A program made the translations under genes and the position numbers. Under the pieces are notes generated by a model. That model ran no database searches, had not been told where the DNA came from, and saw only the letters and a program-made list of their open reading frames with translations. Positions 5,384-23,573 of a DNA stretch of 64,000 nucleotides are shown one piece after another. Source of the DNA: Paraflavisolibacter caeni (GTDB taxonomy: Bacteria; Bacteroidota; Bacteroidia; Chitinophagales; Chitinophagaceae); assembly GCF_025628885.1 (NCBI RefSeq), contig NZ_JAOTIF010000013.1, positions 1-64,000 on the forward strand. Direction: 5' to 3'. How positions within the stretch are numbered: the stretch's first letter is position 1; each line of letters opens with the position of its first letter.

Positions 5384-6148
5384 ATGTTATCGATAAGAAA
5401 CCTGCATGCAGGCATTGAAGAAAAAAAGATTTTAAAAGGAATTAATCTAGACATCAAACCGGGTGAAGTACATGCTATTATGGGACCTAATGGTTCTGGT
5501 AAAAGCACTTTGGCATCTGTACTGGCCGGAAGAGCAGATTATGAAGTATTAGATGGTTCCGTTGATTTTGATGGCAAAGACCTTTTGGAATTGTCACCTG
5601 AGGCTAGAGCCGGGGAAGGTTTGTTTCTTGCGTTCCAGTACCCAGTAGAAATTCCAGGTCTGAGCACAACCAACTTTATTAAAACTGCTGTAAACGAAGT
5701 ACGCAAGTACCGTGGGCAAGAGTCTCTGGATGCTGTAGCTTTCCTACGACTGATGAAAGAAAAGATGGCCATGATGGAAATAGACCAGTCACTTTTGAGC
5801 CGTCCTTTGAATGAAGGTTTCTCTGGTGGTGAGAAAAAACGTAACGAGATCTTCCAAATGGCGATGCTAGAACCAAAGCTGGCTATTTTGGATGAAACTG
5901 ACTCTGGTTTGGATATCGATGCTATCCGCATTGTAGCCAATGGTGTGAACAAGCTGCGCTCTAAAGACAACGCGGTATTGTTAGTAACTCACTATCAGCG
6001 TCTTTTGGATTATATCGTTCCTGATTTTGTACACGTACTGTACAATGGACGTATTGTGAAGTCTGGTACTAAAGAATTGGCACTTGAGCTGGAAGAAAGA
6101 GGATACGACTTTATTAAGAGTGTAGTGGACGCTGTTGAAGAAGCGTAA
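5384..6148 (+). CDS. sufC: SufC, ATPase of the SUF complex
   Basis: 254 residues. ABC ATPase with Walker A GPNGSGKST near residue 33, a SufC-type signature FSGGEKKRNE near 148, and Walker B LAILDETDSGLD near 166; the H-loop is in VTHYQRL. SufC lacks membrane partners and instead drives conformational change of SufB-SufD during cluster assembly in the cytoplasm. Second gene of the operon, 63 bases before sufD. Confidence 0.97.
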   Translation: MLSIRNLHAGIEEKKILKGINLDIKPGEVHAIMGPNGSGKSTLASVLAGRADYEVLDGSVDFDGKDLLELSPEARAGEGLFLAFQYPVEIPGLSTTNFIKTAVNEVRKYRGQESLDAVAFLRLMKEKMAMMEIDQSLLSRPLNEGFSGGEKKRNEIFQMAMLEPKLAILDETDSGLDIDAIRIVANGVNKLRSKDNAVLLVTHYQRLLDYIVPDFVHVLYNGRIVKSGTKELALELEERGYDFIKSVVDAVEEA

Positions 6149-10286: not shown

Positions 10287-12986
10287 CTATTTAAGTCCTA
10301 TCAGTTTTCCTGTTACTTGTTGGTCTCCCACCTTGAAGATGTAAATCAGATTAGAACGTTGTGCACCAGGAACATTGTATTCAATGTTTTGCACTTGTCC
10401 TTTCTGTACATAACCCTGGAAGACAGTCTTTACTTTCTGACCCAGCATGTTGTATATTTCCAAAGACCCTTGCCCGGAAACTTCAGATACCAAAGTGAAC
10501 TTGATCTTGTTGTAGAATGGATTTGGAGCAGCCAATACTTTGGTCTTTGCAGCTTCAATCCTAGCATTTACAGTTTCAACCTCAGTACTTTTAAATGTTG
10601 ATGCAATTTCATTTCCTTTAATGCTTGATGCGTTTCCTTGCTGACTGAGGACCTGAGTTAGCGGTGCGTTTGTTTGGCAAATATCAGTGCATGGCTCACC
10701 ACCACATATACTTGGCGCAGCATCGCAACCATTCTTAGTAGCTATAATTCTGTAGCCAGCAGCAAATTTCAGATTTTCAAAAACCTTTTCACCAGCTCCG
10801 GCCGGGATGCTTGAACTGTATGCGCTATTACATGGTTGAGTAACTGTATAGATGGTGTTGGGATCCGGGTCTTTTATCTTTAACTTGAAGCCTGCATCAG
10901 TACATATGATCGGAAGAATATCAGCATCAGGACCAATTATCTGGGCTTTTACCGTTAATGTTACCTCACTTTGTGCAAAACCACAGGAAGGTGTAGCATT
11001 ACTAGTCACAGTTAATCTTAGGGTCACGCTACCACCATTTGTGTTACCACTCAGTTTAACAGATGGCGTCAATGTATTTCCATTTGTTATATTGACTGTG
11101 AAGTTATTTGGATTGCTTTTCACATCCCATAAAGGAGTTCCATTCGTACCTGTTCCTGTCAAGTTAAACGTATTGCCATTAGTATTATAACATTGATCAG
11201 CAGGCGTTGAACCTGCGTTTGCCGTCGGTTTGGAATTTACAACAACAGTTACGTCACTAGTTGTATTACTGCATGAAGGTGTAGCATTGCTGTTAACAGT
11301 CAATCTCAATGTTACACTACCACTTCCACCACTTACTTTGACGGAAGGGCTGAAGGTATTCCCATTTATTATAGGATCCACTGTGAGGTTATTTGGATTG
11401 CTCTGTATGGCCCAAGATGGGTTGCCATTGGATCCTGAACCACTTAAGCTGAAGGTATTACCATTTGTTGGATCCTGACATTGAACAGCAGGAGCGGCTT
11501 CTGCATTTGCTGTAGGATTAGGATTGACTACAACTGTTACATCGTTGGTAGCATTGCCACATGAAGGTGTGGAAGTACTAGCCACCGTTAAGCGGAGTGT
11601 AACACTGCCAGTACCACCACTGACCTTAACTGATGGAGTATAGGTATCTCCATTGGTAATAGCAACGGTTAAGCCATTCGGGTTGTTTTGTACGGCCCAA
11701 GATGGATTGCCATTAGTTCCAGAGCCACTTAAGTTGAAAGTGTTGCCATTTGTTGGATCCTGACATTGTGCAGTTGGTGCTGTTCCGGCATTTGCTGACG
11801 GATTAGGATTGATCTTTAAGGTAACAGGAGTTGCCTGACTTTGGCATCCCTTCAAAGTTTGGGTAACATAATAATTATTGGTCGAAGCGGCCGCATTGCT
11901 AACCCCAGTTGCAAAGGAACTCCCTGTATATAACAAATTAGTAAGAGCTTCATCGCTATACCATTTAAAGGTTGCCCCTGATTCACCAGTAACGGTCAGG
12001 TTTTGAATCGTTTGATCAACGCAATAGGTTGCGCCGGAAGCCGTTGGTTTACCCACATTGATATCTAAATTCACTTGAAGAGGATCAACAAAGTCGGCCA
12101 GATCAGCAGTTACGGATTGGGAAGACTTGGTCATTACAAACATAGTAGATATAGATCCTACGCATGGCGTGGCCGTATTCCTGTAAATTTCAGATATATT
12201 GACAGAAACTTCAATAAATGAATTAATACTATAGGATGTGCCACCAAATACGTCATAAGGCATGCCTGAGATCACAGCACTATTTGTAGCGCCAAAAGCA
12301 GGCATAGGCGTTATCGAAAATGTCACCCATTTGTAAACACCCCCAACGTTTCTCCATTCTTCTAAATAAAGATTCGGGTTAGAGCCACCACCGGTAAATT
12401 CAGCTGATATCTGTACATCACCGACGGTACGGCCCCCAGTTGAACTTGGAGCCTGACTTTTAAATGAGCCATCTGTTTCTTTTGTCATCATTTTCTGGAG
12501 CAATGCAATAGAAATAAAGCTGTTTCCGCTCGTTGACTCCCTGTCTCCTGCCAAAGTAATCCAGGTATCGCCATTTGCATCATCAGAAATGTGCATCAGA
12601 AAATTATTAATATCACATTTTGAAGGAGTTGGATTTCCCGATTTCCATCTATAAGAATTCAGGTCATGATCTTTTTTCAAGCCACCTTCAAAAATATTAT
12701 CACCATTGGTATATAAATCCGTGCGATGATAAGTTGTCGTATTTACAATAGGTACACCAGCAGCAGTCAAAACAGATCCCCCTGTCGCTCCAGCCACTGT
12801 ATTGGGCAGCCAGTCACCAGTATTGGCAGGTGTATTTGCTTTTAAATCACCGTCTAACCGAAACCCACCTACCGGAGGATTTACGGGTGCATTTCCTGAA
12901 ACAACTGCTTGCCCATATATATTTACAGCCATTAAAAAAGGAATAATAAGCAGGATAAAATATTTGAGGTTTGTATTCTTACTCAT
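10287..12986 (-). CDS. Large secreted repeat protein with T9SS sorting domain
   Basis: 899 residues. N-terminal signal peptide ending near IYGQA (residue ~26). Residues ~1-300 form a uniquely structured domain, followed by an Ig-like segment (~310-390). Residues ~391-680 are three tandem copies of a ~95-residue beta-rich module containing GNTFNLSGSG, PSW and GSVTLRLTV. The C-terminal ~85 residues (PNPFYNKIKF to the end) match the type A sorting domain of the type IX secretion system, so the protein is exported and attached to the surface. The DNA repeats have a period of 284-288 bp (about 11812-10960). An adhesin or surface-layer role is inference. Confidence 0.88.
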   Translation of the reverse strand: MSKNTNLKYFILLIIPFLMAVNIYGQAVVSGNAPVNPPVGGFRLDGDLKANTPANTGDWLPNTVAGATGGSVLTAAGVPIVNTTTYHRTDLYTNGDNIFEGGLKKDHDLNSYRWKSGNPTPSKCDINNFLMHISDDANGDTWITLAGDRESTSGNSFISIALLQKMMTKETDGSFKSQAPSSTGGRTVGDVQISAEFTGGGSNPNLYLEEWRNVGGVYKWVTFSITPMPAFGATNSAVISGMPYDVFGGTSYSINSFIEVSVNISEIYRNTATPCVGSISTMFVMTKSSQSVTADLADFVDPLQVNLDINVGKPTASGATYCVDQTIQNLTVTGESGATFKWYSDEALTNLLYTGSSFATGVSNAAASTNNYYVTQTLKGCQSQATPVTLKINPNPSANAGTAPTAQCQDPTNGNTFNLSGSGTNGNPSWAVQNNPNGLTVAITNGDTYTPSVKVSGGTGSVTLRLTVASTSTPSCGNATNDVTVVVNPNPTANAEAAPAVQCQDPTNGNTFSLSGSGSNGNPSWAIQSNPNNLTVDPIINGNTFSPSVKVSGGSGSVTLRLTVNSNATPSCSNTTSDVTVVVNSKPTANAGSTPADQCYNTNGNTFNLTGTGTNGTPLWDVKSNPNNFTVNITNGNTLTPSVKLSGNTNGGSVTLRLTVTSNATPSCGFAQSEVTLTVKAQIIGPDADILPIICTDAGFKLKIKDPDPNTIYTVTQPCNSAYSSSIPAGAGEKVFENLKFAAGYRIIATKNGCDAAPSICGGEPCTDICQTNAPLTQVLSQQGNASSIKGNEIASTFKSTEVETVNARIEAAKTKVLAAPNPFYNKIKFTLVSEVSGQGSLEIYNMLGQKVKTVFQGYVQKGQVQNIEYNVPGAQRSNLIYIFKVGDQQVTGKLIGLK
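10960..11812 (-). repeat. Three tandem ~285-bp coding repeats
   Basis: Unit boundaries near 11800, 11516 and 11228, each beginning at the NPNPxANA type linker. The first two copies are closest; the third is more diverged and shortened at its start. Confidence 0.85.
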
Positions 12987-18384: not shown

Positions 18385-18429
18385 AGTTTTATCGAAGATT
18401 TCTTCGCTTAGTTTAATAAATTGCATCTC

Positions 18430-18945
18430 ATGAGTTTTCACATTCGATATGCAACTACAGAGGATTCAAAACTTATAGCGGACCTCAGTCATCAGACCTT
18501 TTATGAAGCTTTTGCTGCTCAGAACACCAAAGAGAACATGGATAAGTTCCTGAACCAGCAATTTACAAAAGGCAAATTGATGCTAGAGGTTGGCGCACCT
18601 GGCAACACTTTCTTACTTGCTCAAAATGACCATGAAGTAGTCGGTTATGCCAAGCTTAGAGAAAACACAGAACCAAGATCTTTAGGCATTATACCAGCAC
18701 TTGAAATTGCAAGGCTTTATGTTGTACATCATATGATTGGTAAAGGTGTTGGCAAGTTGCTGATGTCAACTATCTTCGATATTGCAAGACAAAAGAATAT
18801 ACCTGCTGTATGGCTATCTGTATGGGAAAAAAATCAGCGCGCTCTAGACTTTTACAACTATTGGGGCTTTGAGAAGTTTGATGAGACGCTATTTGTTTTG
18901 GGAGATGATGTTCAACATGACTGGCTTATGAGCAAGAAGGTATAG
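18430..18945 (+). CDS. GNAT family N-acetyltransferase
   Basis: 171 residues from ATG 18430 (a TTG three codons upstream is less likely). The acetyl-CoA pyrophosphate loop is in RLYVVHHMIGKGVGKLL, with FYNYWGFE as the C-terminal GNAT motif. The overall pattern resembles PaiA-like polyamine or small-molecule acetyltransferases; substrate unknown. Confidence 0.88.
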   Translation: MSFHIRYATTEDSKLIADLSHQTFYEAFAAQNTKENMDKFLNQQFTKGKLMLEVGAPGNTFLLAQNDHEVVGYAKLRENTEPRSLGIIPALEIARLYVVHHMIGKGVGKLLMSTIFDIARQKNIPAVWLSVWEKNQRALDFYNYWGFEKFDETLFVLGDDVQHDWLMSKKV

Positions 18946-18984: not shown

Positions 18985-21900
18985 TCAACTTAACTTTGCT
19001 ATAAATTCTTCCAATTTAAAATGACCTTCCACTTCAATTCTTGGAAGACGCATCGGATCATCATTAAAACTGCTTAATCTATTTTCCGTGGTAACTCCTA
19101 TTGTGTAACCACAGGCTCCCAAAAGATGGGCCACAACAGTGTCTGTATCACCATATGGATACGCAATTAGTTGAACCGGTCTTTGTAATTCATTTTGCAA
19201 GCTAGTTCGGGATCTTATGCCTTCCTCCACAATCTGGGTAGGTGTTAAAGAAGTAAGGGGTTGATGTGTAGCTGCATGTGAACCAAACTCCACTCCTTGC
19301 TGCTGTAGTTCAATGATTTCCTCCCAGCCCATAAGTGGCAATTTCTCACCATATACTTCATCCCAAGCATTTTGCTGACCAACCTGCCCTGAAACCAAAA
19401 ACACTGTTGCAGTGAAGCCGTATTTTTTTAATAATGGCCAAGCATATTCATAGAAGTCTTTGTAACCATCATCAAAAGTAAATATGACAGCCAAGCCTGG
19501 TAAAGGACGTTTCATTGTAACTGCAGTTGTCCAATCTTCTAAAGTGACACTATAGTAGCCACTTTCTTTTAAAAATTTTAAATGTTCTTCAAAGTCTCCA
19601 GGAGAAACCCGGTACCTGCTCATTTCCTGGGAACCGTGTGGTGCCACACGATGATACATCAAAATAGGCAGTTTCTCTGTTGACAGCTTTGAGATGACTG
19701 TAGTACCAGATGGAATTCCCCCATTCCACCTCACAGAATCCATTACATCTTCAGGAATTGGTGTTGGCTGATCGAGAAATTGAATAGAAGGTTTATTTAT
19801 TGGCAGCAAGGAAAATATATTGGGCTTTGTTTTTTGAAACAATTGAACCCGGTAAAGCGGAGTGCGTATTTCCTTTACTAATCGTAATGAATGGATTTTT
19901 GCAAAAGTTTCACCAATTACCTTGGCACCAAACGAAAGGCCCCAATCAAAACCAGGTTTCTTGGGTTCGTCAATGACCTGATGCGCATGTGCCATGACTA
20001 AATACCCCTTGGGCAATAGTGCATTAGCAATTTTTTTAGCGACGCTTCTCAGCTTGTTCAAATCTCCAACATAATACAGAACTTCACTGCAAACAATCAG
20101 CTCAAATTGACCCGGTAAATTATCTTTTACTAAATCAAGATTTTGGTAGCTAATATGTTCAAAGCGCTCACAACGATGTGCGGTCCTTTCCAATGCCACT
20201 TTCGAAATATCGGCAGCAGTTAAATTATTTACAAGTGGGGCCAATTGTTCGGTAAAGTGCCCTTCTGCACAAGCTATTTCCAATGCTTTATCAATTTTTT
20301 GCCTGGGCAATAGTGACAAAGTAAATTCATATTTTGTTTGCTCGTAAGGATGAGTATACTTCCAAGGGTCTTTTTGTTTTGAAAAGAGCGTTTCAAAATG
20401 TTGCCGGCCATAAACATTCACTTCTTTTACTTCGTTTTCCAATGCATTACTCCACTGTGCATCTTGCAATTGTGCAACGAACTCTGGTGCATACATTACA
20501 TAATCTGCTTGATTCAGGTTAGCAGGCAGTTGAATGACTGGTTCATTGAACGCCTTTGCCATTTCACTTATGGGAGCTGCTGTAGCGGAGGGTAAAGCTG
20601 CCCGGCGTGAAATACTCAAATTCATTTGACCTGCTCTTCGACCTAATAGCATTGAGTTAGCAGTAATCAACTTGTTGTCTGTAATAGAAAAAATGTTGTT
20701 TTGAGTGGAAACAGTTTGACTTTTATTTGCATTAAATGCATGCCTCAGACGTTGAACTAAAGGTGTAGGATCTTTAAGTGTCTTGCCAATCAATGCTTCT
20801 CGTACGCAAACGCGACATAATTCCAGGCCTGAATTAACATTTATAGCTACCCTGATCTCTGATGCTCTTATGAGGTTGTCTTTTACTGGAATGCTGATGA
20901 TGCCAGCATTCACACCTCCAACTGAAAATATTAAATGATGATTTTCTGTTGTAGTTAATATATCAGGTAATTCCTGACTGATTTCAACAACTTCTACATC
21001 AGCTTCGTTTACTTGCTTTATAGACGTTTCTTTTACGCCTGAATCATAAAACTTGTTTATATCCCAGTCTGGCCGATTCCATAATTGTTGCATGAAAGTT
21101 GTCCAACCAATGGTATTATGTATCTCCTCAAATGATTTGCTTTCATTTGTATTTTGAGGATAAGATTTACAATAGACAGTATTTTCAAAGAATCGACCCA
21201 GAATGGGCCAATGATATTGGTTAGCAGTTGCATCTTTTAAAACATAAGCCGAAACAACTCCATCACAAATAGGTAATTCAATTGTACCCAGTAGCTGCCC
21301 TTCCATTCTCAACACACAGTATAGCCGTTCAAGTCCTTTATTTTCAACATATATATCTTCAATAGGTTCTGTTATTTCTATAAATGTTGTATAATATGGG
21401 CCAATAGAAAAAGCTCCGCTAATTTGCGTTCCTTGTAAAATCATTTTTACCAGGTTCAGCTTGCTTCTCTTAGCCAATCCCAGACATTCACTTTGAATTT
21501 CCAAAGCTGAAAGAAACTCGTCTATAGCCGGTTCAAATTGAGGATAAAGTAAGTTCCATTGGGAAAGAGTCTGACAGTTAGGAACGATCGCAGCATCAAA
21601 AATACTATCGGCTACCCAATAGGGTTCTAATGAAGGGGCTTTTTCTGATGTCAAAGCCGATAGTAAATGTTTGGCATCTTGTCCTTCACCCATCAAATAA
21701 CCTGCGATCCAGATTGTAATGTAAAATTTACTGACGGGTAGAAGTTCTGGAGATTCACCATTCGGATAAAGCAAGTTCACACCTTTTAAGCGATCATCAG
21801 GAAAATGCGCCTGGGTTAATACACGCATAGCATCCCTAAAAAATCGCGTAGCATTACTCGATAAAGAATGCCTGCGCATTCTATAGAAAGCCATTACTTC

Positions 21901-22530
21901 CTTCACCAGTTCAAATCTTGCCCCTATACGTGCAATTTTCAACCATAAATCCCAATCCTCACATGTCTTTAAAGAAGTATCGAATCCGCCAGCGGTTTCT
22001 ACCAGTGATTTACGAATGATACAAGCATGGATAGCAAAAGGACAATGCATGGCCAAAACTGGGAAAAGATCATGCAATGCAGATCCATACATTTCTCTTA
22101 CCAGCTCTCCTGCTGGGGTAACGCGTGTCCATCCACAATGTACACCATCTATCTCTGAATGAGCATTTAAAACATTCGTCATTCGCTCCAGGTAATTGTC
22201 AGCAATCCAATCATCTGAATCGAGAAAAAGCAGCCAATCAAATTGAGCTCTTGTTATGCCTGTGTTACGTGCAGAACAAACCCCTTGATTAGATTGTGTT
22301 ATAATGCTTATTCTGCTATCTTTTCCTACCAAATTGTTTATAATTGATCGTGTTTCATCTGTTGAACCATCATCTACAACAATGACTTCCCATCCGTTAA
22401 AAGTTTGGTTCTGTACAGAATGTATTGTTTCGGCTATTGTTGATGCAGAATTATAAGAAGGAATGATTATAGATACTTTGATTGGCCTTTTTTCAATTAC
22501 ATCTTGCACATTTCCTTGCTCACTTATCAT
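18985..22530 (-). CDS. Trifunctional GT2 glycosyltransferase / SAM methyltransferase / polysaccharide deacetylase
   Basis: 1181 residues in one frame. Residues ~18-240 are a GT-A family 2 glycosyltransferase (SIIIPSYN, DDG at 53-55, DSDD at 104-107, EDWD at 191-194). Residues ~240-710 match nothing I know, but two segments (about 390-450 and 545-600) look alike (G-x-L/N-x-G-x-I-x-L/I-P-x-x-D/K), suggesting a duplicated beta-rich module. Residues ~715-880 are a NodS-like SAM methyltransferase (motif I LEIACAEGHF at 750-759). Residues 954-1181 are a NodB-like deacetylase (TFDDGY with D1020/D1021, and H1085/H1089 in SHAATHQP). No signal peptide or membrane helix. I recall this fusion as an annotated but functionally unstudied family; a role in making a modified surface glycan is inference. 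Confidence 0.88.
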   Translation of the reverse strand: MISEQGNVQDVIEKRPIKVSIIIPSYNSASTIAETIHSVQNQTFNGWEVIVVDDGSTDETRSIINNLVGKDSRISIITQSNQGVCSARNTGITRAQFDWLLFLDSDDWIADNYLERMTNVLNAHSEIDGVHCGWTRVTPAGELVREMYGSALHDLFPVLAMHCPFAIHACIIRKSLVETAGGFDTSLKTCEDWDLWLKIARIGARFELVKEVMAFYRMRRHSLSSNATRFFRDAMRVLTQAHFPDDRLKGVNLLYPNGESPELLPVSKFYITIWIAGYLMGEGQDAKHLLSALTSEKAPSLEPYWVADSIFDAAIVPNCQTLSQWNLLYPQFEPAIDEFLSALEIQSECLGLAKRSKLNLVKMILQGTQISGAFSIGPYYTTFIEITEPIEDIYVENKGLERLYCVLRMEGQLLGTIELPICDGVVSAYVLKDATANQYHWPILGRFFENTVYCKSYPQNTNESKSFEEIHNTIGWTTFMQQLWNRPDWDINKFYDSGVKETSIKQVNEADVEVVEISQELPDILTTTENHHLIFSVGGVNAGIISIPVKDNLIRASEIRVAINVNSGLELCRVCVREALIGKTLKDPTPLVQRLRHAFNANKSQTVSTQNNIFSITDNKLITANSMLLGRRAGQMNLSISRRAALPSATAAPISEMAKAFNEPVIQLPANLNQADYVMYAPEFVAQLQDAQWSNALENEVKEVNVYGRQHFETLFSKQKDPWKYTHPYEQTKYEFTLSLLPRQKIDKALEIACAEGHFTEQLAPLVNNLTAADISKVALERTAHRCERFEHISYQNLDLVKDNLPGQFELIVCSEVLYYVGDLNKLRSVAKKIANALLPKGYLVMAHAHQVIDEPKKPGFDWGLSFGAKVIGETFAKIHSLRLVKEIRTPLYRVQLFQKTKPNIFSLLPINKPSIQFLDQPTPIPEDVMDSVRWNGGIPSGTTVISKLSTEKLPILMYHRVAPHGSQEMSRYRVSPGDFEEHLKFLKESGYYSVTLEDWTTAVTMKRPLPGLAVIFTFDDGYKDFYEYAWPLLKKYGFTATVFLVSGQVGQQNAWDEVYGEKLPLMGWEEIIELQQQGVEFGSHAATHQPLTSLTPTQIVEEGIRSRTSLQNELQRPVQLIAYPYGDTDTVVAHLLGACGYTIGVTTENRLSSFNDDPMRLPRIEVEGHFKLEEFIAKLS

Positions 22531-22882: not shown

Positions 22883-23069
22883 ACTTATAGTAATAAAAAA
22901 TTTCATAAACATGAATGATGCAGAAGTGGTAAAGACATGTAGATGATAACCACGATTTAAGAATAGAACTTAGGTAATGTTTAGATCGAATAATATCGTT
23001 ATTGATGGCGGCGAGGTGGTGTTTGAGCTTAAATTGAATTCTTTCCGGGTAAGGCGTTTATTTTGCAGC

Positions 23070-23573
23070 ATGAAACTGAATTTTCGTGATGCTCACTTAA
23101 ATGACTTACCCGGAATTGTTTCTATATACAATGCAACAATACCTGGCCGGATGGTTACGGCTGACCTGGAGCCAGTTTCTGTCAAAAGCAGGATGGACTG
23201 GTTTTATGAACATACGCCTGAAAGACGCCCGTTATGGGTAATTGAAGATGATCAATCGGAAATGTTGGGATGGGTCAGCTTCCAAGACTTTTATGGCCGT
23301 ATAGCGTACATTGCTACTGCTGAAATCAGCATTTATATTGATGCTGCACACCAGCGTAAAGGCATTGGCAAGCAAGCGTTACAATATGCGATGGATCAAT
23401 GTGCAGGTCTCCAGATCAAAACACTTCTCGGTTTCATTTTCGCGCACAATGAGCCTAGCCTTCAATTATTTTACCAACTGGGTTTTGAAGACTGGGCTAT
23501 GCTTCCCAACATAGCTAACCTGGATGGAATTGAAAGAAGTTTAAAAATTGTAGGAAAGAGGGTTAGCGACTAA
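23070..23573 (+). CDS. GNAT acetyltransferase, phosphinothricin-acetyltransferase-like
   Basis: 167 residues from ATG 23070. An in-frame ATG at 22977 is rejected because the family begins at MKLNFRDAHLNDLPGI and because a TATTTTG box lies only three bases before 23070. Conserved features: IYNATIPGRMVTAD, WVSFQDFYGR, and the CoA loop HQRKGIGKQAL, ending with FYQLGFE. Relatives acetylate phosphinothricin, methionine sulfoximine or similar amino acid analogues. Actual substrate unknown. Confidence 0.85.
   Translation: MKLNFRDAHLNDLPGIVSIYNATIPGRMVTADLEPVSVKSRMDWFYEHTPERRPLWVIEDDQSEMLGWVSFQDFYGRIAYIATAEISIYIDAAHQRKGIGKQALQYAMDQCAGLQIKTLLGFIFAHNEPSLQLFYQLGFEDWAMLPNIANLDGIERSLKIVGKRVSD

Follow-up and report, generated by a model that had tools for sequence, protein, structure and literature searches.

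The window, a stretch of 64,000 nucleotides, encodes a chain of 1181 residues that combines three plausibly active enzymes: a GT2 glycosyltransferase, a NodS-type class I SAM-dependent methyltransferase and a CE4 polysaccharide deacetylase. The protein probably finishes an exported glycan. The best explanation, given a probability of about 0.4, is that this cytosolic enzyme decorates a lipid-linked glycan with a modified amino sugar ahead of ABC export, the chemistry being presumed. The computed evidence consists of three folds with conserved active sites, the co-inheritance of the domains, the lack of a clear membrane segment in the chain, and the many relatives that are linked to ABC exporters. 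The role on a cytoplasmic glycan carrier that the original prediction had put forward is counted as supported.

The gene is complete and forms a single-gene unit on the minus strand (18985..22530). Its reading frame, which starts with an ATG at 22530 and ends with a stop codon at 18985-18987, is unbroken through all 1181 codons; the plus strand across 18985-22530 carries many stops. These coordinates had been predicted exactly, without the strand. The upstream neighbour is a divergent ORF (22977-23573, plus strand) and the downstream neighbour a convergent one (18421-18945, plus strand). The AlphaFold2 model of the whole chain has a mean pLDDT of 86.7 and a pTM of 0.77. Re-examination of the Foldseek top 1000 chains gave solved-structure matches for all three domains, which answers the structure-prediction check proposed earlier for the entire chain. 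Together with the Pfam matches, this bears out the assignment of a GT2, a NodS-type methyltransferase and a deacetylase to one 1181-residue chain. That description was incomplete in one respect, as it left residues about 261-705 (~440 residues) unaccounted for. With its frame intact and its active-site residues kept, the gene shows no sign of being an inactive remnant.

Residue conservation was examined in an alignment of 37 out of 46 rows (L009-L014 and L016 were omitted, as were L031 and L055 as near duplicates). The GT2 domain (residues about 18-250; 21781..22479, minus strand) is defined by its fold, by the motifs DDGS, DSDDW and CEDWDLW, and by a match to Pfam Glycos_transf_2 (PF00535) over residues 20-125 (121.5 bits for a cut-off of 23.3, E 4.4e-35). 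Its model resembles chondroitin and heparosan synthase domains with Z about 27. Against the NCBIfam model of NodC-type chitooligosaccharide synthases it scores 38.9 bits, below the cut-off of 550. Residues D54, D104, D106 and D194 are kept in 37/37 rows, and E191 in 36/37.

The methyltransferase domain (residues 706-902; 19825..20415, minus strand) is the part that most resembles a Nod-factor enzyme. NodS methylates de-N-acetylated GlcNAc. The Pfam NodS family matches residues 720-877 (91.8 bits for a cut-off of 24, E 6.6e-26), and the model superimposes onto NodS (3ofk) with Z 25.0 and 1.9 Å over 187 residues at 30% identity. By sequence, the best solved-structure match is also NodS (3ofj, phmmer E 2.1e-21). 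The score of 99.7 bits does not reach the 300-bit cut-off of the NCBIfam equivalog nod_mtase_NodS. Among the motifs ACAEG and SEVLYY, the latter has a Tyr-Tyr pair in common with NodS (AEVLYY). Residues E751, D774, E816 and Y819 are kept in every one of the 36 rows with a methyltransferase domain. The available text of PMC3482155 describes two His or two Tyr at the methyl site of NodS and RebM, and two His lining that of WbdD, which methylates a phosphate. It is presumed that the Tyr pair of SEVLYY corresponds to the methyl-site Tyr pair described there.

The CE4 domain (residues 951-1181; 18988..19680, minus strand) matches Pfam Polysacc_deac_1 (PF01522) over residues 1011-1144 (89.5 bits for a cut-off of 23.1, E 2.1e-25). 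Its motifs are ILMYH at 956-960 (H960), TFDDG at 1018-1022 (D1020, D1021), HAATH at 1085-1089 (H1085, H1089), AYPYG at 1123-1127 and LPR (R1164); HAATH has the spacing of HTX2H with A in place of T. NodB itself has the NodB1 motif order, with MT5 C-terminal, which the window deacetylase does not follow. Instead, MT5 stands at the N-terminus of the domain, in the circularly permuted NodB2 order of PgaB, IcaB and PplD. As given in the available text of PMC10967932, the NodB2 consensus has MT5 (VLMYH) N-terminal, then TFDDG, HTX2H or H(T/S)X3H, and AYPYG, and the order is known from poly-GlcNAc de-N-acetylases. The closest solved structures agree with this order: PplD (6dq3, Z 30.9), IcaB (4wcj, Z 27.7) and PgaB (4f9d, Z 27.2). 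Because the deacetylase has the NodB2 order, the analogy with Nod-factor synthesis drawn originally is good only for the methyltransferase, which is NodS-like by Pfam and by fold; for the glycosyltransferase and the deacetylase a close analogy is not supported. Residues D1020, H1089 and R1164 are kept in 37/37 rows, and D1021, H1085 and H960 in 36/37. The residues taken as catalytic, whose loss among orthologues would have told against the original prediction, are kept with two exceptions over the 37 rows (36 for the methyltransferase), and some motif positions beside them differ in one or two rows.

Since it is fused to a SAM-dependent enzyme, the CE4 domain would have to act in the cytosol. 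The hydropathy scan found no clear membrane segment in the window protein, the top 19-residue value being 1.58, within the GT domain; values in the 12 of the 37 alignment rows examined range from 1.43 to 2.27. The protein had been called soluble, and this holds in the sense of a chain without a clear membrane segment.

The middle region begins with a helical segment (residues 261-367; 21430..21750, minus strand), predicted by AlphaFold2 with 10-residue pLDDT means above 90. It is followed by two copies of an unnamed α/β module at residues 383-438 (21217..21384, minus strand) and 514-566 (20833..20991, minus strand). Aligning one half of the region with the other by hhalign (7 rows) revealed the duplication, with a probability of 94.4% and E 9.2e-8. 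No Pfam family was found above its cut-off in this region, the top match reaching 12.5 bits (E 0.14) for a cut-off of 22; the Pfam search of the whole chain at E 0.1 placed nothing here. A separate model of the region (463 residues, 7 rows, pLDDT 72.5) resembles no solved structure clearly (best Z 4.0; Foldseek best E 0.05), which does not amount to a new fold.

All three domains are encoded at no fewer than 44 other loci from several phyla, the count from the contig scan being a lower bound. With these loci and the full-length alignment to a Gloeothece protein, a local chimera or assembly artefact was rejected, and confinement of the fusion to one genome, which would have undermined the original prediction, did not materialise. 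The annotated family mentioned in the original prediction exists: RefSeq uses the name 'trifunctional glycosyltransferase/class I SAM-dependent methyltransferase/polysaccharide deacetylase', for instance for WP_013334356.1 of Gloeothece verrucosa. The window protein has this architecture, with an N-terminal GT2, a central class I methyltransferase and a C-terminal deacetylase on one chain, and is a new member of an already named, uncharacterised architecture; a search of the open-licence PMC literature found no functional study of it. The word 'trifunctional' in the available text of PMC10936431 refers to WaaA. Alphaproteobacterial members, of about 950-1030 residues, have a much shorter middle region than the window protein.

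The distances computed for each of the three domains correlate with one another across 21 diverged members (r of 0.69, 0.78 and 0.85; 0/2000 permutations as high), obtained by dropping L021 and L022 and thinning 44 rows to less than 75% mutual identity. This computation shows that the domains are co-inherited as one unit. L021 and L049 are GT-deacetylase fusions with no methyltransferase, so methylation seems to be an added step. No match was found in viral contigs with the single-protein scan; with an alignment as the query, 220 viral stretches encoded a relative, of which the best 80 match query residues up to 335 only, the GT part, and include no phage-borne copy.

A survey of gene neighbourhoods, as had been suggested, found that relatives often adjoin ABC exporters like those that handle surface sugars and that the window copy stands alone. 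Among 45 loci listed, Wzm/Wzt lies within 10 kb in 6, a full-length HepA/MsbA-like exporter (at least 480 residues, within 10 kb; a looser count gave 24/45 MsbA-like) in 20, only another GT in 1, and none of these in 18. The last comprise 14 loci of one Mesorhizobium clade, 3 whose flanking DNA falls short of 2 kb on one or both sides, and 1 other. Outside the Mesorhizobium clade, 26 of the 28 loci with enough flanking DNA have an ABC exporter within 10 kb; L036, the window copy and all 14 loci of that clade have no such exporter nearby. As the ORF caller skipped some genes in GC-rich loci (initially at L049), a neighbour's absence is less certain than its presence. With identical profiles, exporters were found in 10 of the 25 GT2-only control loci of at least 15 kb and in 11/37 control loci overall, counts that cover entire loci with a simpler gene caller and are not strictly comparable with the 10-kb count. 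Association with exporters exceeds this GT2 control only moderately, and many of the loci are closely related. The HepA/MsbA-like exporters belong to a type with other cargo as well, and the four tested all scored under the cut-offs of the named models. In Coleofasciculus, the trifunctional frame begins 6 bases past the end of wzt. The neighbourhoods of the relatives suggest ABC-exported glycans rather than lipo-chitooligosaccharides, and the acceptor may differ between clades since the two exporter types differ.

In the best explanation, the GT2 domain would add an N-acetylhexosamine to the lipid-linked glycan, the CE4 domain would take off the N-acetyl group of the added residue, and the NodS-type domain would N-methylate the exposed amine, so that the glycan would bear an N-methyl-hexosamine as an end or a branch. 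The ABC transporter would then export the modified glycan. The middle region would probably keep the domains and the acceptor together. We infer the order of the steps, the sugar, N- versus O-methylation, the acceptor and the carriage of the product by the exporters, and likewise that the orphan window copy still serves a glycan-export pathway.

As aligned, L022 has an altered CE4 active site (H960R, D1021E, H1085Y) and an intact methyltransferase, which does not fit a methylation dependent on the fused deacetylase. In Thiobacillus, where the cluster is unfused, the separate methyltransferase belongs to a type other than NodS, and this also counts against the scheme. The case of L022, together with the loss of the methyltransferase alone in L021 and L049, suits a rather unlikely alternative in which the GT transfers a single sugar whereas the deacetylase and the methyltransferase modify other residues of that glycan, for example by O-methylation, and the fusion merely co-locates them. 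Class I methyltransferases include both O- and N-methylating enzymes. The strong co-inheritance of the three domains and the close NodS match favour a chained pathway over this alternative.

A somewhat less probable possibility is that the modified residue caps an ABC-exported polysaccharide at its non-reducing end, where it would stop growth and be the tag read by the carbohydrate-binding Wzt_C domain, like the methyl phosphate made by WbdD in E. coli O9a. The available text of PMC3482155 and PMC11231755 describes known terminators that join methyltransferase, other catalytic and sometimes GT modules in one large protein, with the end group read by the Wzt domain. Linked wzm-wzt genes with Wzt_C above cut-off occur at L018, L019, L021 and L047, and a wzm-wzt-like pair lies about 30 kb from the trifunctional gene in Gloeothece; yet Wzt_C is under cut-off in L022 and was not detected in the Gloeothece protein, and the wzt of L020 is truncated at the contig edge. 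Moreover, of the 20 loci with a HepA/MsbA-like exporter and no Wzm/Wzt nearby, 18 have the short Pseudomonadota-type enzyme or offer no evidence of a CBM-read cap. The terminators described in the available text of PMC11231755 carry a coiled-coil ruler, whereas the longest helix predicted in the AlphaFold2 model of the window protein has 29 residues. The window copy is also unlinked to the wzm-wzt cluster of its own genome. It is still more doubtful that a terminal N-methyl-hexosamine, made by one enzyme through transfer, de-N-acetylation and N-methylation, is a new ABC-export cap, recognised as the mark of an export-ready glycan by the neighbouring Wzt_C or by a HepA-like exporter; if so, Nod-factor-like end chemistry would serve as a general signal for export in different phyla.

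The gene is a probable acquisition. At E 1e-100 it was found in 0 of 97 further genomes from the same genus, family and order. It clusters with cyanobacterial copies from Gloeothece and Nostoc (SH-aLRT 99) in a quick tree with several long branches and a query row of odd letter composition. Its GC3 of 0.295 is the lowest of 33 ORFs of at least 250 residues (mean of the other 32, 0.408; s.d. 0.045). Acquisition is considered probable because of these three observations. They would also agree with a recent, possibly idle acquisition without a present glycan partner in this genome, as would the absence of a GT or exporter profile match adjoining the window copy. This reading appears improbable, given a frame intact over 1181 codons with active-site residues kept, and given that contig C11 carries a wzm-wzt and GT cluster, unlinked to the gene, from which an acceptor could come.

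By appearance, the protein is a self-contained three-step glycan modifier that has kept its active sites and is present in several phyla. As all steps lie on one seemingly soluble chain, purifying this one protein could bring a new amino-sugar decoration to light. A product with an N-methylated or free amino-sugar end would account for the finishing of some ABC-exported surface glycans and tie Nod-factor type chemistry to ordinary surface polysaccharides.

Known systems resemble the protein in parts. NodS is a standalone protein of the Nod-factor pathway, whereas the window domain is fused and far under the NodS equivalog cut-off. PplD, IcaB and PgaB have in common with the window CE4 domain the permuted motif order and the fold (Z 27-31), but work outside the cytosol, whereas the window domain is predicted to work inside. 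WbdD, whose methyltransferase has NodS and RebM as its nearest structural relatives, and Klebsiella O7 ORF6 are large proteins of several modules, a methyltransferase among them, whose genes accompany those of Wzm/Wzt; as far as the available text goes (PMC3482155, PMC11231755), they have a kinase and a coiled-coil ruler with no deacetylase described, and the likeness is one of description. In the Acinetobacter baumannii LOS core, according to the available text of PMC10936431, genes 2900/2901, predicted to encode a GT and a polysaccharide deacetylase, are both required for one core glucosamine; their products are likened by description only, being two separate proteins with no methyltransferase mentioned in that text. 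WP_013334356.1, whose RefSeq name derives only from domain content, has the three domains in matching order, with 47.6% identity over 99% of the chain.

The trifunctional gene occupies positions 18985-22530 of the window on the minus strand, runs from an ATG at 22530 to the stop codon at 18985-18987 and encodes 1181 residues; the plus strand across this interval contains many stops. It forms a single-gene unit flanked by one divergent (22977-23573, plus strand) and one convergent neighbour (18421-18945, plus strand), both labelled GNAT-like from reading of their translations. Pfam profiles for GT2 (4.4e-35), NodS (6.6e-26) and Polysacc_deac_1 (2.1e-25) match the protein far over their cut-offs. 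The full chain was modelled by AlphaFold2 from a 37-row alignment with a mean pLDDT of 86.7 and a pTM of 0.77. The N-terminal domain of the model resembles chondroitin and heparosan synthase domains (Z about 27), the central domain matches NodS (3ofk; Z 25.0, 1.9 Å over 187 residues, 30% identity), and the C-terminal domain matches PplD (Z 30.9), as well as IcaB and PgaB. No clear membrane segment was found in the window protein, the best 19-residue hydropathy being 1.58.

The trifunctional protein is real, intact and phylum-crossing. All three domains are carried on one chain in at least 44 of 87 loci, 7 of which had been fetched earlier and 80 kept from a genome scan; these member counts are lower bounds. 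The three-domain loci belong to Cyanobacteriota, Planctomycetota, Gemmatimonadota, Verrucomicrobiota, Acidobacteriota, a 'Deltaproteobacteria' bin and Pseudomonadota, with one further genome from the phylum of the window (presumably Bacteroidota, judging by the window's proteins), and several come from metagenome bins. The residues taken as catalytic are conserved in 37 aligned rows, with the exception of L021, which lacks the methyltransferase and has a proline aligned at E191, and L022, which carries H960R, D1021E and H1085Y. Further motif positions differ in one or two rows, such as E756 in L019 and D58 in L036. Domain distances co-vary across 21 diverged members (r 0.69-0.85), none of 2000 permutations being as high. 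The architecture already has a RefSeq name, and no characterization of it was found as far as the literature searches reach. On a cyanobacterial plasmid (L010:11753-12397), the record label 'N-methyl-D-aspartate receptor NMDAR2C subunit' is surely a misnomer.

Two loci, L021 and L049, encode GT-deacetylase fusions devoid of methyltransferase. In Scalindua (L021:8940-13012), a radical SAM (SPASM/twitch) gene immediately precedes that of this enzyme. A Planctomycetota copy that retains the methyltransferase (L020:7936-12617) has a member of the same sequence cluster in the corresponding position. A possible unfused counterpart is the wzm-wzt cluster of Thiobacillus (L066:5372-14779), in which deacetylase, methyltransferase and GT2 are encoded by separate genes lying side by side; its methyltransferase gave no match to Pfam NodS or to the methyltransferase profile of the family.

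In the middle of the protein (residues about 261-705), the Pfam search gave no family over the cut-off, and no clear match to a solved fold was obtained (best Z 4.0, which carries little weight). This region consists of a helical part and an alpha/beta module in two copies (hhalign probability 94.4%, E 9.2e-8). The module profile found matches in 10 of the 16 genomes or records searched, including weaker copies joined to GT2 domains in the same genome (C1:1002905, E 2.5e-5) and in Coleofasciculus (E 3.9e-6). Since copies are joined to GT2 domains elsewhere, the duplicated module looks like a GT2-associated accessory module. At one end of contig C1 (L195:3003-8585), several neighbouring genes carry an unnamed module, not in Pfam, before or after GT2 domains. 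It resembles the duplicated module at window positions 20833-21384, in one place by profile match (E 2.5e-5) and in the others by reading of the sequence only.

The context within 10 kb was counted for 45 loci, the 44 three-domain loci and L021. A Wzm/Wzt-type exporter was present in 6 and a HepA/MsbA-like exporter of at least 480 residues in 20, while one had only another GT. None of these was found within that distance in 18, namely the Mesorhizobium clade of 14 loci (L012, L033, L035, L037-L039, L043, L045, L046, L050, L052, L054-L056), which keeps the gene, three short loci in which one or both flanks are under 2 kb, and L036. With the clade and the short loci set aside, 26 of 28 loci have an exporter, compared with 10 of 25 GT2-only control loci of at least 15 kb analysed with the same profiles (whole loci, simpler gene caller). 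This is an excess over the control and no proof; many loci are close relatives. The usual rhizobial order is epimerase, GT2, trifunctional gene, GT2, exporter, GT2, and in Coleofasciculus the trifunctional frame begins 6 bases past wzt. The best NCBIfam model was HepA for three of four exporters tested and MsbA for that of Gloeothece, all under the cut-off, so that the cargo is not thereby assigned. In the window, the profile scan matched no GT or glycan exporter apart from the trifunctional gene, the sole exporter-profile matches being to a SufC-like ATPase (5384-6148). The window also encodes an 899-residue protein (10287-12986, minus strand) with, by eye, about three degenerate repeats 'NPTANAG..Q..DPTNGNTF.LSGSGTNG.P.W' and a C-terminus that looks like a sorting signal of Bacteroidota.

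The gene was likely gained horizontally by this genome. At E 1e-100, it was absent from all 97 other genomes compared, of which 17 represent the genus, 41 the family and 39 the order, some of them incomplete; among the 86 genomes at least 90% complete, only its own has it. A phylum sample of 395, own genome included, yielded one other at E 1e-60. In a quick tree, the nearest rows are those of Nostoc and Gloeothece (SH-aLRT 99). The GC3 of 0.295 is the lowest among the 33 window ORFs of at least 250 residues, the other 32 averaging 0.408 (s.d. 0.045).

In the most likely reading, with a probability of about 0.4, the predicted activities would act in succession on one residue. A HexNAc would be transferred to a lipid-linked glycan in the cytosol, its acetyl group would be taken off, the freed amine would be N-methylated, and the finished glycan would be exported by an ABC transporter. 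NodB followed by NodS is a precedent for chained deacetylation and N-methylation. The substitutions in L022 disfavour this succession. A further precedent comes from A. baumannii, where a predicted GT and a predicted deacetylase are both needed for one glucosamine (PMC10936431). WbdD is an example of a methyltransferase of the NodS fold that works for an ABC-exported O antigen, and there the end modification is required for export (PMC3482155; PMC11231755).

It is less probable, and on balance unlikely, that the modified residue terminates an ABC-exported polysaccharide as a tag for Wzt_C, in the manner of WbdD. Wzt_C is over the cut-off in L018, L019, L021 and L047 and below it in L022; in Gloeothece, the protein encoded about 30 kb away from the trifunctional gene gave no Wzt_C match. 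In the window's own genome, contig C11 carries a cluster of wzm-wzt(Wzt_C) and GT genes, unlinked to the trifunctional gene. A coiled-coil ruler is missing from the predicted model, and the HepA/MsbA-like contexts also speak against a terminal tag.

To the original prediction of a fusion analogous to the Nod-factor enzymes, the analysis adds the NodB2 deacetylase order, the apparently GT2-associated duplicated module, the frequent proximity of relatives to ABC exporters and a likely acquisition of the gene by horizontal transfer. Judged by its motifs, the deacetylase is of the NodB2 (circularly permuted) order and not of the plain NodB type proposed: ILMYH (H960) comes at the start, followed by TFDDG, HAATH and AYPYG, with R1164 late in the domain. 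In the NodB2 description, MT5 (VLMYH) comes first, MT2 is HTX2H or H(T/S)X3H, MT3 is AYPYG, and the arginine, to which R1164 presumably corresponds, comes from elsewhere; to date, the order is described as related to poly-GlcNAc de-N-acetylases alone (PMC10967932). PgaB has a permuted CE4 order (PMC13366581). HAATH has the same spacing as the HTX2H consensus, with alanine replacing threonine. The likeness of the GT to NodC does not hold (38.9 bits against a cut-off of 550). The Nod resemblance is retained only by the methyltransferase, which is NodS-like as predicted but falls under the NodS equivalog cut-off (99.7 against 300).
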